Made by a program: the position numbers and the translations under genes. Shown piece by piece: positions 12,642 to 41,013 of a stretch of DNA of 64,000 nucleotides. Positions within the stretch are counted from its first letter, which is position 1; every line of letters starts with the position of its first letter. Source of the stretch: Streptomyces sp. NBC_01478 (GTDB taxonomy: Bacteria; Actinomycetota; Actinomycetes; Streptomycetales; Streptomycetaceae); the NCBI RefSeq assembly GCF_036227225.1, contig NZ_CP109444.1, forward strand, positions 4,507,501 through 4,571,500, in the 5' to 3' direction. The notes beneath the pieces are model-generated. The model saw only the letters and a list, made by a program, of their open reading frames with translations, made no database searches and was not told where the DNA came from.

Positions 12642-13655
12642 ATGCCGCAGACCGAGACACCAGGCATCGAGGCGGACCGGCGACCCCGGCTGCGCTGGTG
12701 GACCGAGCTGCCGCTGATCCTCATGGTGTACGCGTCGTACTCGGCGGGCCGGCTGCTGGCCCGGGGCGACACGGCCAGCGCCGTCGACCACGGTCTGGCC
12801 ATCCTGCGCATCGAGAAGTTCCTGCACATCAACGCCGAGCACCCGCTCAACCGGCTCTTCACGCGCGAGGCCTGGCTCGGCATCCCGGCCGACTTCTGGT
12901 ACGCATCACTGCACTACCTGGTCACGCCCGCGATCCTGATCTGGCTGTTCAGGTCACGCGCTCAGGTCTACCGCGCGGCCCGCACCTGGCTGATGACATC
13001 CACGTTCATCGGCCTGATCGGCTTCACCCTCCTCCCGACCTGCCCGCCCCGGCTGCTCTCCCCCGACTACGGCTTCGTGGACACGATGGCCAAGTACAGC
13101 TCGTACGGCTGGTGGGGCGGCGACGCGAGCGCGCCGCGCGGCCTGGGCGGCATGACGAACCAGTACGCGGCGATGCCGAGCCTGCACTGCGGCTGGGCGC
13201 TGTGGTGCGGGGTGATGCTGTGGCGCTACGGCGGTACGCGGCTCACGAAGGTCCTCGGTGTCGCCTATCCGCTGCTGACGGCGATCGTGGTCATGGGCAC
13301 CGCGAACCACTATCTCCTCGACGCGGTCGCGGGTGTGGTCGTGATGGGGCTCGGGTTCCTGCTGGCGCCGCAGGTGATGAAGGCCGCGGACCGGATCAGG
13401 GCGCGGTTCGAGGGGCACGGCTCACTCGTCGCGGCCCGCTCCCGTGACGCCGTTCCCGGCCTCTCCCGTGACCTCGCGCGTGACGCGTCCCATGACGCCT
13501 CTCGTGGCACTGAAACCTCAATTGTCAGTGGCGGATGCCAGACTTCCCCGGGTGAACGAATTCCACGGCAGCGCGAGTCACAGCTCGGTACCGGAGCCGA
13601 GCCGGGTGCCTCCCCCACGGACGCGGGGGACGGCGCTCCGGCACCGGCTCGCTGA
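12642..13655 (+). CDS. PAP2-superfamily integral membrane phosphatase/transferase
   Basis: The 337-residue protein starts at an ATG after a purine-rich GGGGGAGGG site. It has about six hydrophobic segments. The PAP2 signature is split: MPSLHCGWALWCG (SxxxH type) and GTANHYLLDAVAGVVV (the catalytic SRxxxxxH type, here NHYLLD). This is the arrangement of inositol-phosphoceramide-synthase-like PAP2 proteins, which act on lipid phosphates. The C-terminal 90 residues are disordered. Its 3' end overlaps the start region of the nuclease gene and carries the DNA-damage promoter at 13522. Confidence 0.88.
   Translation: MPQTETPGIEADRRPRLRWWTELPLILMVYASYSAGRLLARGDTASAVDHGLAILRIEKFLHINAEHPLNRLFTREAWLGIPADFWYASLHYLVTPAILIWLFRSRAQVYRAARTWLMTSTFIGLIGFTLLPTCPPRLLSPDYGFVDTMAKYSSYGWWGGDASAPRGLGGMTNQYAAMPSLHCGWALWCGVMLWRYGGTRLTKVLGVAYPLLTAIVVMGTANHYLLDAVAGVVVMGLGFLLAPQVMKAADRIRARFEGHGSLVAARSRDAVPGLSRDLARDASHDASRGTETSIVSGGCQTSPGERIPRQRESQLGTGAEPGASPTDAGDGAPAPAR
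13522..13544 (+). promoter_or_regulatory. RecA-NDp/PafBC-type DNA-damage promoter
   Basis: TTGTCAGTG at 13522-13530 is followed after exactly 8 bases by CAGACT (13539-13544). The RecA/LexA-independent DNA-damage promoter bound with PafBC in actinobacteria has the consensus TTGTCRGTG-N8-TANNNT. The match is complete except C for T at the first -10 base. The GTG of the nuclease gene (13552) lies 7 bases after the -10 box, so the transcript would be leaderless. The site is inside the 3' end of the PAP2 gene. Confidence 0.75.
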
Positions 13656-14781
13656 GCTGCGCGGCCCCGACGTCCCGGCCAAGGCGCTGGACGCGCGCGC
13701 CCTCGCGGCACTGGCGGCGAACCCGGGCTGCAAGCGCCGGGCGATCCTGGACGGCGCGGGGGTGAACAAGGCGGTGCTGGCCGACGCGCTCGGCTCGCCG
13801 TCGGCCTTCGGACAGTCCCAGTTCGCCTTCATGCGGGGCAATGCCTTCGAGGCCCGGGTCAAGGCGGACGGCGGCGCGGAGCTGCTGCGCCTGGTGCACG
13901 AGAAGCTGGACCCGGGCGCCGAGCCGCCGACCCGCGCGCGGGTGCCCGACCTGTCCGCGATCGGCCCCGAGGGGCGCGCGGCCCGTACGGCGCTGGCGCT
14001 GCGCGAGGCCGGCGAGGCCGCCGCCTGGACCTTGCTGGACCACCCGATGCTCGCCCTCGACGTGGCGGGTTCACCCGCGTTCCTGGAGCCGGACGCGGTG
14101 GTCGTGCACCCGGACGGCAGGTGGACGGTCGTGGAGATCAAGTCCTTCCCGATGCTGGACGGTTCGGCGGACCCGGCGAAGGTCGGCGCGGCCGCCCGCC
14201 AGTCGGCGGTGTACGTGCTGGCCCTGGAGGAGGTCGCCGCCCGCCTGGACCCGGTTCCCCAAGTCCGCCACCGCGTCCTCCTGGTCTGCCCGAAGGACTT
14301 CTCGAACCTGCCGACCGCGTCCGCCGTCGACGTCCGCAAGCAGCGCGCGGTCACCGGTCGCCAACTGGCCCGCCTCACCCGCATCGAGGACATCGCCGAC
14401 ACCCTCCCCGAGGGCACCTGCTTCGCCCCCGACCGCCCGGCCGCCGAGCTGACCGCAGCGGTCGAATCGGTCCCCGCGGCCTACGCCCCCGAATGCCTAG
14501 CCGCCTGCGAACTCGCCTTCCACTGCCGCGACCACTCCCGCACCTCCGGCGCGGTCACCACCCTCGGCCGCTCCCTGCGCGCCGAGTTGGGCGACCTGAC
14601 GACGGTCGACGAGGTCCTGTCGGCGGCCCACGGCGAGTCCGGCGACCCGGACGACCCGGCGGTGGCCGCGCTGCGCAGAGCGGCCGAGTTGAGGGCCGAG
14701 GCGCTGGCACACCTCCCGGAGGGGCTGGAAAGCCGACAGGGAGTCCTGGACCCGCGACAGGAGGGCGCCGCATGTCGCTGA
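13552..14781 (+). CDS. Cas4/Dna2-type PD-(D/E)XK nuclease with predicted Fe-S cluster
   Basis: The 409-residue protein carries a RecB/Cas4-like nuclease: GNAFE (96-100), Asp181 (EPDAVVV), Glu195-Ile-Lys197 (VVEIKSF) and QxxxY (Gln217-Tyr221). Cys60 (NPGCKRR) lies before the nuclease core, and Cys315-x3-Cys319-x5-Cys325 follows it, the spacing expected for a 4Fe-4S staple as in Cas4, AddB and Dna2. The GTG at 13552 is chosen because the DNA-damage promoter ends 7 bases before it; ATG 13492 and GTG 13444 are alternatives. It is the first gene of an overlapping operon with a helicase, pointing to DNA end processing or repair. Confidence 0.85.
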   Translation: MNEFHGSASHSSVPEPSRVPPPRTRGTALRHRLAELRGPDVPAKALDARALAALAANPGCKRRAILDGAGVNKAVLADALGSPSAFGQSQFAFMRGNAFEARVKADGGAELLRLVHEKLDPGAEPPTRARVPDLSAIGPEGRAARTALALREAGEAAAWTLLDHPMLALDVAGSPAFLEPDAVVVHPDGRWTVVEIKSFPMLDGSADPAKVGAAARQSAVYVLALEEVAARLDPVPQVRHRVLLVCPKDFSNLPTASAVDVRKQRAVTGRQLARLTRIEDIADTLPEGTCFAPDRPAAELTAAVESVPAAYAPECLAACELAFHCRDHSRTSGAVTTLGRSLRAELGDLTTVDEVLSAAHGESGDPDDPAVAALRRAAELRAEALAHLPEGLESRQGVLDPRQEGAACR

Positions 14782-16370
14782 TCTCAACTCTCGCCCGGCT
14801 GGAGGCCGTTCACACCGGCCGGGCCCAACCCGCTGCCACCGTCCGCCACCGGCACCTCTCCGAGCGCCCCCTCGTCCTCGTGCCGCTCACCACCGCCGGT
14901 GAGGCCGGGGCGCCCCTGGGTGCGCTCGTCGGCACGGACCGGGACGCGCCGCGCCTGCTCGTCGTACCGCAGCCGCGTGACCGTGACCTGAGGTTCGCGT
15001 TCCTCGCCGAACTCGCGGACGTGGTGCTGCCGTACATCGACACATACGCCGACGACGTCGAGGCGGCCGAGCGCAACGAGACCGATCCGGAGACCGGGAA
15101 GCGCGTCAAGGTCGAGGTCGAACTGTGCGCGGACGCCCCGCAGTTGATCGTGCCGAGCCGCGCGGGCATCGAGTTGGTACGGCTGTTGGGGCGCTCGATG
15201 CGGTTTCGCCGTACGGCCGAGCAGGACCCGGAGACCCCGCATCCCGCGCCCCCGCACGTGCCGTTGCTGGGGCGGTGGCTGACGCACTTCGGAGAGCGGG
15301 CCCGGGTGCCCGGCTCCGCGCTGCTGCTCGCGCTCACCGAGGTGCTCGGCCGGCACTGGGCCACCGGCCAGTCCAGCCTGGAGGACCAGCACTTGGGCGC
15401 GCTGCTCGCCTGGATCGACCCGCCGGACGGCGTCCCGGGCGCCGAGGCCGCGCTCGACGCGGAGCTACGGCGGGACGCGCGCGGCCAGTTGGTGTGCCCG
15501 CCGGCCGGCCCGGCCACGGACCCGGCGTTCGACAACAAGCTGCTCGCCCCCGCCATCGAGCGCTACGACCGCGCCCGTACCGCACTCGCCGCCGCCGAGG
15601 ACGGTCTGGAGGCCGACGACCGGCTCGGTGAACTCACCGCCGCCGAGCGGGAGATCAGGTCCCTCGTCGAGAACGTCACCCGCCCCACCTGGGACGCGGT
15701 GTGGCACGGAATCGACCTGCTGCGGACCCTGCCGGAGGGCGCGCACGCCGTGGACCGGTGGACCCGCGACCGCTGGTCGTTCACCGGTCACCGGGACCGG
15801 ATCGTCGCCGGTGAGCCCCCGCAGCCGCGCCGCGACGACGCGGTCACCGCGGCCAACAAGCTCGCCACGCGCGAGCGGGAGCAGGCCCGGCTCGATGCCC
15901 AGGAGGCCCTGGACGACCCGCTGGTGATGGCCGGGCGACGGCTCGCCGGAGAAGCGTTCGCGGGCGAGGTCATCGATGTCGTCATGGCGTACAGCGAGGG
16001 CAAGAGCCCCCGCCCGCGCCCGCTGGTGACGGTGCGCACGGACGACCGGCCGCATCTCGGGGAGCGGGTGAAGGTGTTCCGGTCGCTCGGCGGGAAGCCG
16101 CAGTCGGCGGAGTTCGTAGGGCACGAAGAAGAAGGCGCCCTGATCGTCCTCCGGGTCGTCGACAAGATGGGCCGCGGCAAGGAGCCGGAGACCGGTTCGC
16201 TGCCGGAGAAGGGCGACCGGATCTGCTTCACGCTGTTCGAGCACGAGCAGCGCGGCGGCGCGAAACTGCCCGACCAGGAGGAGACACCGTGGACACACGG
16301 CGGCCCGCCGGGCGAGGAGACCGCCGTACAGGAGTCGGCCGATCCGGTGACCGAGGAGGACGTGCTGTGA
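14772..16370 (+). CDS. Unknown protein of the nuclease-helicase operon
   Basis: The 532-residue product begins at an ATG with GGAGGG upstream and overlaps the nuclease gene by 10 bases. There is no signal peptide or membrane segment. It has a helical, charged middle (about 240-390) and a C-terminal beta-rich segment with many Val/Lys/Gly residues (about 415-495; VKVFRSLGG, ALIVLRVVDKMG, GDRICFTLFE), ending in an acidic tail. The family is not recognised. Position and length suggest it supplies a bridging or DNA-contact module between nuclease and helicase, equal to the middle of a single-chain Dna2-like enzyme. That role is inference. Confidence 0.85.
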   Translation: MSLISTLARLEAVHTGRAQPAATVRHRHLSERPLVLVPLTTAGEAGAPLGALVGTDRDAPRLLVVPQPRDRDLRFAFLAELADVVLPYIDTYADDVEAAERNETDPETGKRVKVEVELCADAPQLIVPSRAGIELVRLLGRSMRFRRTAEQDPETPHPAPPHVPLLGRWLTHFGERARVPGSALLLALTEVLGRHWATGQSSLEDQHLGALLAWIDPPDGVPGAEAALDAELRRDARGQLVCPPAGPATDPAFDNKLLAPAIERYDRARTALAAAEDGLEADDRLGELTAAEREIRSLVENVTRPTWDAVWHGIDLLRTLPEGAHAVDRWTRDRWSFTGHRDRIVAGEPPQPRRDDAVTAANKLATREREQARLDAQEALDDPLVMAGRRLAGEAFAGEVIDVVMAYSEGKSPRPRPLVTVRTDDRPHLGERVKVFRSLGGKPQSAEFVGHEEEGALIVLRVVDKMGRGKEPETGSLPEKGDRICFTLFEHEQRGGAKLPDQEETPWTHGGPPGEETAVQESADPVTEEDVL

Positions 16371-17701
16371 CCGCCGTGTTCGACGCCGGTGCCGAGGCCG
16401 GCCGCGCCACCGACGCGATCCTCCGCGACACCCTGCACGGCACCGCGCGCGGAGTCGTCGTCGACTCCCCTCCGGGTGCCGGCAAGTCCACCCTCGTGGT
16501 CCGGGCCGCGCTCGAACTGGCCGACGCCGGGCGCCCGTTGATGGTGGTCGCGCAGACCAACGCGCAGGTCGACGACCTCGTCGTCCGGCTCGCCGAGAAG
16601 AACGGCGAGCTGCCCGTGGGCCGCCTCCACAGCAGTGACGCGGACCCGTACGACAAGGCGCTGGACGACCTGCCGAACGTACGGAAGTCGGCGAAGGCGG
16701 GTGAGCTGGCCGGGCTCCCGGTCGTCATCTCGACGGCGGCCAAGTGGGCGCACGTCAAGGTCGACGAGCCGTGGCGGCACGCGATCGTCGACGAGGCGTA
16801 CCAGATGCGCTCGGACTCGCTGCTGGCCGTGGCCGGGCTGTTCGAGCGGGCGCTGTTCGTGGGCGACCCGGGCCAGTTGGACCCGTTCGCGATCGTCGGC
16901 GCGGAGCAGTGGGCGGGCCTGTCGTACGACCCCTCGGCCTCGGCCGTGACGACACTCCTGGCCCACAACCCCGAACTGCCGCAGCACCGCCTGCCGGTGT
17001 CCTGGCGACTCCCGGCATCGGCGGCACCTCTCGTCTCGAACGCGTTCTACCCGTACACCCGTTTCCGCAGCGGCACGGACCACGGCGACCGGCTCCTCAA
17101 CTTCGGTGTCCCGTCGGACGGTTCGGGCCCGGACCGGGTGATCGACGAGGCGGCGGAGTCGGGTTGGGGCCTGCTGGAGCTGCCGGCCCGCCATACGCCG
17201 CGTACGGACCCGGAGGCGGTGCGGGCGGTGGCGACGGTCGTACGGCGCCTGCTGGACCGGGGCGGCGCGGCCACGTCGGAGCGATCGCCCGACCCCACTC
17301 CCCTGACCGCCGACCGCATCGCCGTGGGCACCGCGCACCGGGACCAGGCGGCGGCGATCCGGGCGGCGCTGGGCGAGTTGGGCGTCACCGACGTCACCGT
17401 GGACACGGCGAACCGGCTCCAGGGGCGGGAGTTCGACGTCACGGTGGTCCTCCACCCCCTCTCCGGCCGCCCCGACGCCACCGCCTTCCACCTGGAGACG
17501 GGCCGCCTCTGCGTCCTCGCCTCCCGCCACCGGCACGCCTGCATCGTGATCTGCCGAGCGGGCGTCACCGAACTCCTGGACGACCACCCGTCGACGGAGC
17601 CGGTGCAGCTTGGGGTGACGGTGAAGTTCCCTGACGGGTGGGAGGCGAACCACGCGGTGCTGGCGCACCTGGCGGAACACCGGGTGACATGGAGACCGTG
17701 A
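16367..17701 (+). CDS. Small superfamily 1 helicase (Dna2/Nam7 type)
   Basis: The 444-residue ATPase starts at a GTG overlapping the previous stop by 4 bases (GTGA), with GAGGAGGA six bases upstream. Motifs visible: Walker A GAGKST (37-42), motif Ia VVAQTNAQVDDL, Walker B VDEAYQ (Asp142-Glu143), motif III GDPGQLDPF (166-174), motif IV SWRLP, motif V-like TANRLQGREFDVTVV and motif VI-like VLASRHRHACIVI. Order and spacing fit SF1B helicases, in a compact form with no N-terminal nuclease. It should unwind DNA for the nuclease two genes upstream. The last 22 residues are duplicated downstream. Confidence 0.9.
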   Translation: MTAVFDAGAEAGRATDAILRDTLHGTARGVVVDSPPGAGKSTLVVRAALELADAGRPLMVVAQTNAQVDDLVVRLAEKNGELPVGRLHSSDADPYDKALDDLPNVRKSAKAGELAGLPVVISTAAKWAHVKVDEPWRHAIVDEAYQMRSDSLLAVAGLFERALFVGDPGQLDPFAIVGAEQWAGLSYDPSASAVTTLLAHNPELPQHRLPVSWRLPASAAPLVSNAFYPYTRFRSGTDHGDRLLNFGVPSDGSGPDRVIDEAAESGWGLLELPARHTPRTDPEAVRAVATVVRRLLDRGGAATSERSPDPTPLTADRIAVGTAHRDQAAAIRAALGELGVTDVTVDTANRLQGREFDVTVVLHPLSGRPDATAFHLETGRLCVLASRHRHACIVICRAGVTELLDDHPSTEPVQLGVTVKFPDGWEANHAVLAHLAEHRVTWRP

Positions 17702-17865
17702 ACCGGCGTCCCGCCGCCCTGCCGACGAGCGCCCGGCCGCCTTCCCGCCGGACGGAGTCCGGCACGCCGCCGGGGGCGGCCAGTGGAAACAGCCCGGACG
17801 GGTGGGAGGCGAACCACGCGGTATTGGCGCATCTGGCGGAGCACCGGGTGACATGGAGACCCTGA
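17630..17865 (+). repeat. Duplicated 3' tail of the helicase gene
   Basis: The last 72 bases of the helicase gene (17630-17701) recur at 17794-17865, shifted by 164 bases. The copies encode the same 22 residues (from DGWEANHAVL through HRVTWRP) followed by a stop; the five differing codons in that stretch are all synonymous. A weaker third trace, WAANHAVRDP, lies near 17945-17972. The second copy has no obvious full gene in front of it, so it looks like the remnant of a duplicated gene or a conserved tail element. Confidence 0.8.
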
Positions 17866-18716: not shown

Positions 18717-19331
18717 ATGAGCCGCACACAGGATGAGCCCTTCGCCGACCGCTTCGACATCTCGGGCGTCACCTCGGACGGTGCCGCCTGGCTCGCCTCG
18801 GCGGAAACGTATCCGCGCAGTACTCTCGCCTTCTGGAAAGAGCGCCCGGACGCCCCGGTCGTCCTGCCCTGCGGCTCCGCCTTCGACGTGGTGAACGCCC
18901 CGGCGATCTTCGGCCGCCGTATGGTCGACCGTCTGTGGGACGAGGGTCCCGGCTCCGGGCCGGTCGCCACGTACCGGGGGCGGATGCTCCTGTTCGCCAG
19001 CCCCGGCACGGCTCAGCGGCTGCCGTCGTTGCTGGGCTGGGAGGAGTGGGGCGCGCACCCCGGAGAGCACAGCCGCACGGGGTCCGTCCCGCCGCTGCTG
19101 TGTCACGGCAAGGGCGACGCGGTGACCGTCCCGGCGCCGGCCGGCGCGGCCTCGCCGACCTCGTTCGACGCGCGCTGGCTGGTCGCTCCGGACACCCGCC
19201 GACCCTGGCTTCCCGGCGCCGAAATCCTGCTCTGGGCGGCCGTGCGGGCGGCCCGGACCGCCGTACGGATATCGATTTTTCCTCGCGCCGATCAGGATGC
19301 TAAGGTCTACGACGTCAGCAGGCGCCGCTAG
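18717..19331 (+). CDS. Prim-Pol-like protein ending inside tRNA-Lys
   Basis: The 204-residue protein resembles the N-terminal domain of Streptomyces bifunctional DNA primase/polymerase proteins: GSAFDVVNAP, GPVATYRGRMLLFASPGTAQRLPSLLGWEEWG and ARWLVAPDTRRPWLPGAEILLWA. The order matches the smaller relative at 9592-10026. The catalytic acidic residues of an active Prim-Pol are not evident. The stop codon TAG (19329-19331) lies within the first ten bases of the tRNA-Lys gene, so mRNA and tRNA processing overlap. The last 15 residues (DQDAKVYDVSRRR) therefore come from the tRNA promoter region. Confidence 0.75.
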   Translation: MSRTQDEPFADRFDISGVTSDGAAWLASAETYPRSTLAFWKERPDAPVVLPCGSAFDVVNAPAIFGRRMVDRLWDEGPGSGPVATYRGRMLLFASPGTAQRLPSLLGWEEWGAHPGEHSRTGSVPPLLCHGKGDAVTVPAPAGAASPTSFDARWLVAPDTRRPWLPGAEILLWAAVRAARTAVRISIFPRADQDAKVYDVSRRR

Positions 19332-19395
19332 CTCAGTTGGTTAGAGCAGCTGACTCTTAATCAGCGGGTCCGGGGTTCGAGTCCCTGGCGGCGCA
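19322..19395 (+). tRNA. tRNA-Lys (anticodon CTT), copy 1
   Basis: A 74-base cloverleaf: acceptor stem GCGCCGC/GCGGCGC, D arm GCTC..GAGC, anticodon loop CTCTTAA with CTT at 19356-19358, and T-arm GGTTCGAGTCC. The discriminator is A19395 and CCA is not encoded (next bases CTA). It is identical to copies 2 and 3 in this window and decodes AAG. Confidence 0.97.
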
Positions 19396-19689
19396 CTAGC
19401 GATTAGGTCGCTGACCTGGGCGTCCTCGGTTATCCGAGGACGCCTTTCGCATGCCCGGCGCTGGGGTGAGCTGGTCCGTCAGCCATACCTCGTACGCGGT
19501 GAGCGGGCGGTCCGGGCGCAGTCGTTCCGGGTGTCCGGCGGGCGGTTCCCGAAGGTCGTTCTCGGCGCACGCGCAGAGGTAGGGCAGACCGAACGCCATC
19601 AGCAGGTCGTCGCACCACCTGCGGAACGCCGCCACCCGCCCGCCCCGCCGTCCGCCTCCGGCTCCGCGCCCGACCCCTCCTCCAGCCAT
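19396..19689 (-). CDS. Small hypothetical protein converging on tRNA-Lys
   Basis: The 97-residue frame begins at the ATG at 19689, preceded on its strand by GGGAGGCGGG. After a Gly/Arg-rich start it reads FRRWCDDLLMAFGLPYLCACAEN and LTAYEVWLTDQLTP, which look protein-like and contain three Cys. The last 25 residues are encoded by the tRNA terminator and the stop sits directly beside the tRNA, so the native end may differ. The family is not recognised. Confidence 0.55.
   Translation of the reverse strand: MAGGGVGRGAGGGRRGGRVAAFRRWCDDLLMAFGLPYLCACAENDLREPPAGHPERLRPDRPLTAYEVWLTDQLTPAPGMRKASSDNRGRPGQRPNR
19419..19447 (+). terminator. Rho-independent terminator after tRNA-Lys copy 1
   Basis: A perfect 11-bp stem GGCGTCCTCGG / CCGAGGACGCC with loop TTAT is followed by TTT, 23 bases after the tRNA. 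Confidence 0.9.
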
Positions 19690-35207: not shown

Positions 35208-35281
35208 GCGCCGCTAGCTCAGTTGGTTAGAGCAGCTGACTCTTAATCAGCGGGTCCGGGGTTCGAGTCCCTGGCGGCGCA
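35208..35281 (+). tRNA. tRNA-Lys (anticodon CTT), copy 2
   Basis: Same 74-base sequence as copy 1. Here the discriminator A35281 is followed by encoded CCA (35282-35284 read CCA), unlike the other two copies. The antisense strand carries the stop of the acyl-CoA synthetase frame. Confidence 0.97.
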
Positions 35282-36905
35282 CCAAAGAAGGGCTCCTCGT
35301 TCCGACGAGGGGCCCTTCGGCGTCCTCGGAGGTCAGTCGCCGGTAGGCCGCCTCCCGCGGCGGCCGCCACCACACCGGATCCGGGCATACGACCCCCTCC
35401 CGCCTGAGCCCCGCCCGATGGATCTTGTTGGTCGCGGTCACCGGCATCCGCTCCACCACCCGCACGAACCGGGGTGCCATCTTCGTCCCCAAGTCCGGCT
35501 GGGTCAGCAGGAATTCGGCGAAGTCGAGCGGGTCGAAGCGCCCGGCGATGGTCGCCATGACCTGGTCGCCGGTCACCGGGTCCGGTACCGCGTAGACCGC
35601 CACGGCGTCGGCGCCCGGGTACCGGGAGAGGATGTTCTCGATCATCGCGGCGGCGAGGTTCTCGCTGTCGACGCGGAGGCGGTCGTCGGTGCGGCCGGCG
35701 AAGTAGAGATAGCCGTCGGTGTCCCGGTAGAAGAGGTCGCCGGTCCAGTACCAGCCCGCCCTGCGCCGTTCCGCGTCCGCCGCCGGATTGCGCCAGTACC
35801 CCTCGAAGGGGTTGGCGCCGCGGTTCACCAACTCCCCTATCGCCTCTTCCCCGTTGAGCAGTCGGCCGGCCGAGTCGAAGACCGCCGGCGGGCACTCCTC
35901 GCACGACTCCGGATCGAGTACGGCGAGCCCGGGCGCCGCCCGCCCCACCGCCCCGGACGGTGTCCCCGGCGACCACTGCACCGCCGCCCCGCCCTCCGAG
36001 GACCCGTACCCCTCCACCAGCCGCACCCCGAACCGCCGCTCGAACGCCGCCGCGTCCACCGCGCCCGCCTCCGTGCCGAAGCCCATGCGCAGCGGATTGT
36101 CCCGGTCGTCGGCACGTTCGTCGGTGGCCAGGATGTACTGCACCGCCCGGCCGACATAGGTGAAGTACGTCGCCCCGTACGTCCGTACGTCGTCCAGGAA
36201 GCGGGACGCCGAGAACCTGCGGCGCAGCGCCACCCCCGCCCCGGCCGCCAGCGCCGGTGCCCAGTCGGCGATCACCGCGTTGCCGTGGAACATCGGCATG
36301 CAGATGTAGTGCACGTCCCCCGGGAGGACGCCGAAGCTGTCGGCCAGCGAGCGTCCGGCGGCGGCCAGTCGGCCCTGGGTGCAGATCGCGGCCTTCGGGG
36401 CGCCGGTGGAACCGGAGGTGAAGTAGAGCAGGACGCGGTCGTCCGGGGTGGCGCGGGAGAAGGCGGAAGGGCGCGCGTCCGCGTACGGGGCGAGCAGGTC
36501 GCCGTAGGGCTGAGTGTCCGTCACCAGGACGTGGACGCCGGGGAGTTGGAGGTTCTCGATCAGCGGGAGATGGGCGCGCTCGGTGACCAGTACCCGGCAC
36601 TCGGTGTGCAGGATGTCGCGGGCCAGCTCAGGGCCTCGGCGGGTGGGGTTGATGCCGGCGACGGCCGCGCCCGCGAGGGCCGCCGCACTCAACCACAGGG
36701 GATATTCGGGGGTGTTGTCGAGCAGCACGCCGACATGGGGCGCGGCACCGGGCGGCAGCAGGTCCGCGAGGAGAGCCGCCCTGGCCGCGGCGCCGGCCGC
36801 CATCTCGTGGTGGGTGAACACCTGTTGCCCGCACCACAGCCCCGGGCGGTGGTCGCCCCACCGCGCCTGGACGAGTTCCGCGACGGTACGCCTGCTGGAC
36901 TCCAT
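35247..36905 (-). CDS. AMP-forming acyl-CoA synthetase, C-terminus running into tRNA
   Basis: The frame encodes 552 residues. Adenylate-forming motifs are complete: LLYFTSGSTGAPKAA (P-loop), VEGYGSSEGG, YWTGDLFYRDTDGYLYFAGRTDDRLRVDSENL and the catalytic Lys in PVTATNKIHRAG. The enzyme should activate a carboxylic or fatty acid with ATP and join it to CoA. About 25 final residues (ending RQGLEPRTR) are encoded by the antisense of the tRNA terminator and tRNA-Lys copy 2, and the stop lies inside the tRNA. The native stop was probably lost, or translation really continues; either way this end is not part of the family. Confidence 0.88.
   Translation of the reverse strand: MESSRRTVAELVQARWGDHRPGLWCGQQVFTHHEMAAGAAARAALLADLLPPGAAPHVGVLLDNTPEYPLWLSAAALAGAAVAGINPTRRGPELARDILHTECRVLVTERAHLPLIENLQLPGVHVLVTDTQPYGDLLAPYADARPSAFSRATPDDRVLLYFTSGSTGAPKAAICTQGRLAAAGRSLADSFGVLPGDVHYICMPMFHGNAVIADWAPALAAGAGVALRRRFSASRFLDDVRTYGATYFTYVGRAVQYILATDERADDRDNPLRMGFGTEAGAVDAAAFERRFGVRLVEGYGSSEGGAAVQWSPGTPSGAVGRAAPGLAVLDPESCEECPPAVFDSAGRLLNGEEAIGELVNRGANPFEGYWRNPAADAERRRAGWYWTGDLFYRDTDGYLYFAGRTDDRLRVDSENLAAAMIENILSRYPGADAVAVYAVPDPVTGDQVMATIAGRFDPLDFAEFLLTQPDLGTKMAPRFVRVVERMPVTATNKIHRAGLRREGVVCPDPVWWRPPREAAYRRLTSEDAEGPLVGTRSPSLVRRQGLEPRTR
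35287..35320 (+). terminator. Rho-independent terminator after tRNA-Lys copy 2
   Basis: A 14-bp stem GAAGGGCTCCTCGT / ACGAGGGGCCCTTC (one G-T pair) with loop TCCG starts 6 bases after the tRNA. Confidence 0.85.
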
Positions 36906-40935: not shown

Positions 40936-41009
40936 GCGCCGCTAGCTCAGTTGGTTAGAGCAGCTGACTCTTAATCAGCGGGTCCGGGGTTCGAGTCCCT
41001 GGCGGCGCA
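40936..41009 (+). tRNA. tRNA-Lys (anticodon CTT), copy 3
   Basis: Identical 74-base sequence to copies 1 and 2, with discriminator A41009 and no encoded CCA (next bases CGA). It lies between the divergent cell-wall hydrolase and the FadR-type regulator. Confidence 0.97.
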
Positions 41010-41013
41010 CGAT

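Follow-up and report, generated by a model that had tools for sequence, protein, structure and literature searches.

A 64,000-nucleotide stretch of the Streptomyces sp. NBC_01478 chromosome (hereafter the window, located at 4.51–4.57 Mb of a 12.1-Mb single-contig genome) contains three overlapping forward-strand genes for a predicted PD-(D/E)XK nuclease (NUC), a middle protein (MID), and a predicted superfamily 1B (SF1B) helicase of the Dna2/Upf1 type (HEL). Translation of NUC (13552..14781) from GTG 13552 gives 409 amino acids (aa); the start may instead be GTG 13606, as in a 391-aa database entry for this protein (P0121). The ATG start of MID (14772..16370, 532 aa) lies within the end of NUC, giving an overlap of 10 nucleotides (nt) at 14772..14781, and HEL (16367..17701, 444 aa) overlaps MID by the 4 nt GTGA at 16367..16370. 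The initial annotation had read these frames as a split Dna2-like nuclease-helicase operon and a candidate DNA-end-processing or defence complex, and its coordinates proved correct. The named best protein matches of NUC and MID belong to Streptomyces; among the best 120 database copies listed for each, nearly all named ones are called "hypothetical protein," and a few are named secreted, membrane, or SseB family protein.

Both the nuclease motifs (RGNAFE 95–100, D181, E195-x-K197, and Q217-xxx-Y221) and the four cysteines of the putative iron staple (Cys60, Cys315, Cys319, and Cys325), pointed out earlier, occur in the NUC sequence. Their conservation was assessed in 121 loci. Eighty were the closest among 592 relatives; since every one of them is titled Streptomyces, they are uninformative on the breadth of the trio. 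The 41 others comprised 33 loci from other genera, five second copies in the genus of the window (L019, L122, L188, L189, and L190), and three further core copies (L020, L021, and L191). Cys315, Cys319, and Cys325 were each kept in 121/121 sequences and Cys60 in 120/121 (one ambiguous residue), while other cysteines of NUC vary (C246 was kept in 112/121 and C290 in 81/121). The motif residues were similarly retained: D181 and Y221 in all 121 sequences, Q217 in 120, K197 in 119, E195 and E100 in 118 each, and N97 in 113. Since they are kept across this set, neither the motifs nor the staple cysteines can be regarded as chance occurrences. The predicted model of NUC has the PD-(D/E)XK core, with low confidence outside it. 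Its best structural matches were Cas4 and MGME1, closely followed by AddA, Exo5, and RecB; DinG was in the seventh row, and restriction and viral endonucleases were found further down. At the sequence level, neither Pfam nor NCBIfam yielded a family for NUC, even at E ≤ 1; the Cas4 family model is among those without a match, although Cas4 heads the structural matches. The NUC profile also hit repeat proteins in the PDB, and these matches were discarded as chance. Three NUC copies (L122:9020-10135, L188:9093-10250, and L176:9616-11712) have lost catalytic residues and retain the four cysteines, with the helicase motifs of their HEL intact.

HEL matched the Pfam families AAA_11, AAA_12, and AAA_30 above cut-off and Viral_helicase1 marginally, and matches to UvrD families were below cut-off (UvrD-helicase, E 0.21; UvrD_C_2, E 0.15). 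Compared with solved structures as a single sequence, it was closest to SMUBP-2 (E 1e-6), slightly ahead of DNA2 (E 3e-6); with a six-row profile DNA2 became the best match (E 6e-14), followed by SMUBP-2, NAM7/UPF1, and others. These results bear out the earlier assignment of HEL to SF1B. The helicase motifs comprise Walker A (about 35–41), DEA 142–144, QGR 352–354, and SRH 386–388. Residues G37, G39, K40, D142, E143, Q146, D167, Q170, R214, Q352, G353, R387, and H388 were kept in 113–115 of 115 sequences, the rest being gaps, and R354 was kept in 106/115. Only about 35 residues precede Walker A, and the matching stretch begins at residue 204 of SMUBP-2 and residue 650 of DNA2. The region ahead of domain 1A in these two proteins includes domain 1B. 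Since HEL begins where these stretches begin, it appears to lack 1B and the rest of the region ahead of 1A. Judged from these alignments, HEL is a Dna2/Upf1-like SF1B helicase core of domains 1A–2A that starts at 1A, without the usual 1B barrel. Downstream of HEL, the window carries a 73-bp second copy of its 3′ end (17793-17865), 92% identical.

In SF1B helicases the 1B barrel and its stalk share a chain with 1A and grip the single strand. According to the confidently predicted model of MID, this protein consists of an N-terminal part with a weak likeness to the RNase H-like fold (a tentative assignment), a helical stalk, and a C-terminal beta-barrel at about 388–490. The best structural fit of the barrel was to SETX/Sen1, tied with unrelated barrels. 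The conserved tail lies around PWTH 506–509 and includes P512. Conserved acids were not found in the first strand of the RNase H-like part. The only Pfam match of MID was CtaG (E 0.043, below cut-off), and no NCBIfam model matched. The modelled barrel probably represents the helicase's own 1B barrel, carried on MID. Because HEL lacks 1B and the barrel of MID resembles SETX/Sen1, the split seems to run through the helicase fold itself, between 1B and 1A.

Genes related to HEL also occur outside the trio. HEL relatives were found on 41 plasmid records at E 1e-20, three of which are the trio-bearing ones; Mycobacterium plasmids are also among them. Plasmids pROB01 of Rhodococcus opacus, pREL1 of R. 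erythropolis, and pXCEL01 of Xylanimonas share a row consisting of an AAA ATPase, a VWA protein, a small gene, a 388–396-aa protein, and an HEL relative (rows of this type are L260:4035-9137, L261:3994-9134, and L262:4059-9140). The helicases of these plasmids matched the HEL profile strongly (210–224 bits), and the 388–396-aa proteins matched the MID profile weakly (10.8–15.4 bits; none of the five remaining proteins in the set of eight exceeded 1.1 bits). In hhalign the 388–396-aa proteins scored 16% when compared with whole MID and 30% when compared with the N-terminal part, with nothing for the barrel. The NUC profile had no match among the eight plasmid proteins tested, and the NUC search of plasmids yielded three records only, none from Rhodococcus. 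The occurrence of weakly MID-like and HEL-like genes in one row without a NUC match suggests a single motor built of two chains, MID and HEL.

The distribution of NUC was examined in scans of the phylum (198 and later 396 genomes) and the class (394 genomes). It was found in 11/198 and then 16/396 phylum genomes and in 71/394 class genomes, one of the latter being weak (G536, E 8e-6). One of the 11 phylum matches, L018 in G156, is false, and the trio is not there. Within the genus of the window, NUC was present in 12/12 genomes in one scan and 39/40 in another. The remaining genome, G592, had neither NUC nor MID, and its sole HEL match (33 bits) was inside a 1258-aa frame. A NUC model without the PD-(D/E)XK fold, separation of the genes, or loss of the staple cysteines in homologs had been named beforehand as grounds for abandoning the proposal, and none of the three was observed: the core fold is modelled and the cysteines are retained, as shown above, and the complete trio stands together in 115/121 loci (in one, L160, HEL spans two frames), including 31/33 in a set of newly collected loci. 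Four of the six other loci stop at a contig end. In the other two, both from one genus, Micromonospora by protein identity, HEL lies at distances of 36 and 49 kb. Between NUC-MID and the relocated HEL there is a shortened HEL-like remnant interrupted by a stop (G554:C4:1351881-1352240). A search of the 41 loci for fusions of the genes found no frame matched by two of the three profiles. The six genes flanking the trio in the window, which we take to be helix-turn-helix, histidine phosphatase, PAP2, small-protein, primase-like, and peptidase-like genes, were sought in the 64 Streptomyces loci of at least 20 kb, where each is present in 60–64 loci; none of them was found in L016, L017, L019, L120, L121, or L122. 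From this linkage and the flanking-gene counts it follows that the trio, which occurs in Streptomyces and related soil bacteria, moves as a unit and that the window copy sits at a fixed chromosomal place. Such a neighbourhood is no less compatible with housekeeping than with defence. The window also contains three tRNA-Lys genes, all with anticodon CTT (19322-19396, 35208-35284, and 40936-41010), within 22 kb.

The closest single-chain relatives of HEL found are fusions of a RecB-like nuclease, RNase_H_2, and an AAA_11-12 helicase of about 1090–1400 aa (L248-L259, from phylum genomes). The HEL profile matched 12/12 PF13482-bearing frames with 57–84 bits. Alignment by hhalign joined HEL to the helicase part of the fusions (99.8%, E 4e-28) and the Cys-rich C-terminal part of NUC to their nuclease part (79.7%, E 1.5e-5). 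The MID barrel region reached E 0.005–0.008, with a probability of only 5–7%, against E 0.05–0.6 for reversed controls. The N-terminal half of MID aligned with the RNase_H_2 part no better than the reversed controls, and no match was found between the cores of NUC and of the fusion nucleases. Like the trio, the fusions, as read from sequence, have the order nuclease, RNase H-like part, helicase, but they are one chain instead of three, NUC has no TIGR03491 match, and MID has no PF13482 match. RNase_H_2 (PF13482) was found in 0/99 genomes of the order of the window versus 52/198 of the phylum. TIGR03491 matched 3/8 trio-bearing genomes tested (G607, G252, and G165), with none in G000. A nuclease matching TIGR03491 is found near the trio of two distant genomes, directly downstream or about 7.5 kb away (L120:5062-6753 in G252 and G165:C4:982-2400). 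Two points go beyond the initial annotation: the 1B barrel is probably located on MID, and there are single-chain bacterial relatives with the parts in the same order.

Among characterized enzymes, eukaryotic Dna2, known from humans and yeast, combines an iron-staple nuclease with an SF1B helicase bearing a 1B barrel. It is the best solved-structure match of the HEL profile but a single chain, and we know of no counterpart in it of the RNase H-like part of MID. AddAB, AdnAB, and RecBCD resemble the trio as multi-subunit end-resection machines with a RecB-family nuclease; their helicases, however, are UvrD-like SF1A enzymes, unlike HEL with its below-cut-off UvrD matches. The accessible part of PMC7430649 attributes an iron staple to AddB and describes Bad, a Dna2-like helicase-nuclease purified from Geobacillus with an iron-staple RecB-family nuclease and an SF1B helicase, as well as a second class of Dna2-like enzyme in Mycobacteria and Rhodococcus. 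Bad is a single monomeric chain, and no split form is described in that part of the paper. The trio shares with the Dna2/Bad class the RecB-family nuclease motifs, the four iron-staple cysteines, and the Upf1-like SF1B helicase, but nuclease and helicase are in one chain in that class and in separate chains here. A literature search, judged by titles and the beginnings of abstracts and with most subscription papers and preprints outside its scope, found no split Dna2-type trio. What distinguishes the trio from the compared Dna2-like enzymes is its division into three, probably with one cut within the helicase too.

Taken together, NUC, MID, and HEL are likely to be the three chains of a single machine that processes DNA ends and belongs to the Dna2/RecB-nuclease-helicase type. 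We infer that the proteins assemble into a complex in which HEL, with its RecA-like domains 1A and 2A, would be the ATP motor, MID would contribute the 1B barrel and stalk, and NUC would act as an iron-sulphur-stapled single-strand nuclease. The RNase H-like domain of MID, seemingly without catalytic acids, would probably serve as a scaffold or DNA clamp. By analogy with Dna2 and Bad, MID-HEL may move 5′–3′ along single-stranded DNA and feed it to NUC, so that DNA would be resected or degraded from its ends. The core copy of Streptomyces is expected to have a role in chromosome maintenance.

Alternatively, the trio may be mainly an anti-plasmid and anti-phage DNA-degradation module, with the Streptomyces core copy domesticated or permanently kept; this possibility deserves attention, but we would not favour it. 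The accessory copies speak for it. A fourth gene, CC, representing a conserved family of about 265 aa with no Pfam match above cut-off in six tested members, was found by profile in 20/41 loci, beside accessory and other-genus copies (L159:8377-9171, L122:10229-11101, L174:8675-9511, L190:10481-11338, and 16 further loci), and, in 17 loci inspected for gene position, it immediately precedes NUC. The CC profile had no match in the window; 8/18 whole genomes searched contained the gene, and it was absent from G000, three more same-genus genomes with a core copy only, and six further trio-bearing genomes. By tblastn, CC was also observed on six Streptomyces plasmids (H7-H12) where the NUC search gave nothing. 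SbcD and SbcC adjoin CC in 5/41 loci of three families. In four of these five (L174, L179, L189, and L019, the last with a JetA gene) there are also genes of the anti-plasmid system Wadjet, belonging to two types, and the fifth, L190, has a HamC-like gene. Furthermore, on two Streptomyces plasmids, NZ_CP108489.1 and NZ_CP027023.1, CC-NUC-MID-HEL precedes genes with a Wadjet-type annotation; SbcD and SbcC are present on the former and a partial SbcD on the latter. L017 adjoins type III restriction and modification genes, and L122 adjoins HmaA and PprPDDEXK.

The PADLOC scan of neighbours was limited to 20 proteins of 10 chosen loci, with no control set; no match was obtained for SbcD and a transposase of L019 or for one protein each of L120 and L172, and a neighbour in L188 reached only 26.5 bits. 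Among the trio proteins themselves, NUC and MID matched no family of PADLOC-DB 2.0.0, and the nine matches of HEL, with MkoC and MkoA first, were all at most 34 bits. Typical defence genes are patchy in distribution; in contrast, NUC is kept in 39/40 same-genus genomes, in a fixed gene neighbourhood. The earlier idea of a defence complex finds support in accessory copies alone, through the neighbours in the chosen loci.

In accessory loci, with CC and in some cases SbcCD and Wadjet adjoining, the same end-processing machine is expected to degrade the DNA ends that Wadjet JetD and similar nucleases leave behind. Circular DNA is cut by Wadjet (PMC10586767), and SbcCD targets DNA ends (PMC12624138); in the accessible parts of both papers, a Dna2-like trio belongs to neither system. 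Wadjet would cut first, SbcCD would act on the ends, and the trio might then degrade the DNA further, this last step and the linkage of the three being inferred. More broadly, and rather speculatively, Actinobacteria may possess a "broken Dna2" of modular design, in which MID-HEL would be an SF1B motor of two chains, with the 1B barrel apart from the RecA domains, and would have exchangeable partners. The partners would be the iron-staple nuclease in the trio, CC and SbcCD beside Wadjet on plasmids and islands, as a clean-up arm degrading Wadjet-cut DNA, or the AAA-VWA proteins on Rhodococcus and Xylanimonas plasmids.

It is unlikely that MID-HEL, as relatives of Upf1, Sen1, and SETX, remodel R-loops or RNA, with NUC mainly a structural partner. 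The SETX/Sen1 fit of the barrel, the three catalytically broken NUC copies, and the AAA-VWA rows are consistent with such a role, but E195 and K197 are retained in nearly all NUC sequences, DNA2 is the best solved-structure match of the HEL profile, and the DNA-end nuclease SbcCD adjoins some accessory copies. Separate action of the three proteins, encoded in one operon without forming a common complex, seems more doubtful still. The two genomes with a distant HEL indicate that linkage is not strictly needed; on the other hand, the frames overlap in 104/119 (NUC/MID) and 54/115 loci (MID/HEL; these counts depend on start choice), the genes are jointly present and jointly absent, and HEL is devoid of the 1B part, which seems to reside on MID. 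A phage origin was rejected, as scans of viral contigs with the window MID, the HEL alignment, and the L120 NUC gave no relative and a search of phage records with HEL at E 1e-5 was negative, although HEL does match phrog_25411 (E 2.5e-15), a family of phage proteins whose function is unknown.

If the proposed machine exists, its accessory copies suggest a fate for DNA after Wadjet cutting, a step that the accessible part of PMC10586767 does not describe. In the trio a Dna2-type resection machine would have come apart naturally, the helicase fold itself being divided, and motor, grip, and nuclease could each be tested separately. Although nearly all the listed database copies of NUC and MID bear the name of hypothetical proteins, the trio is present in almost every genome sampled from Streptomyces, a genus whose linear chromosomes depend on DNA-end processing.

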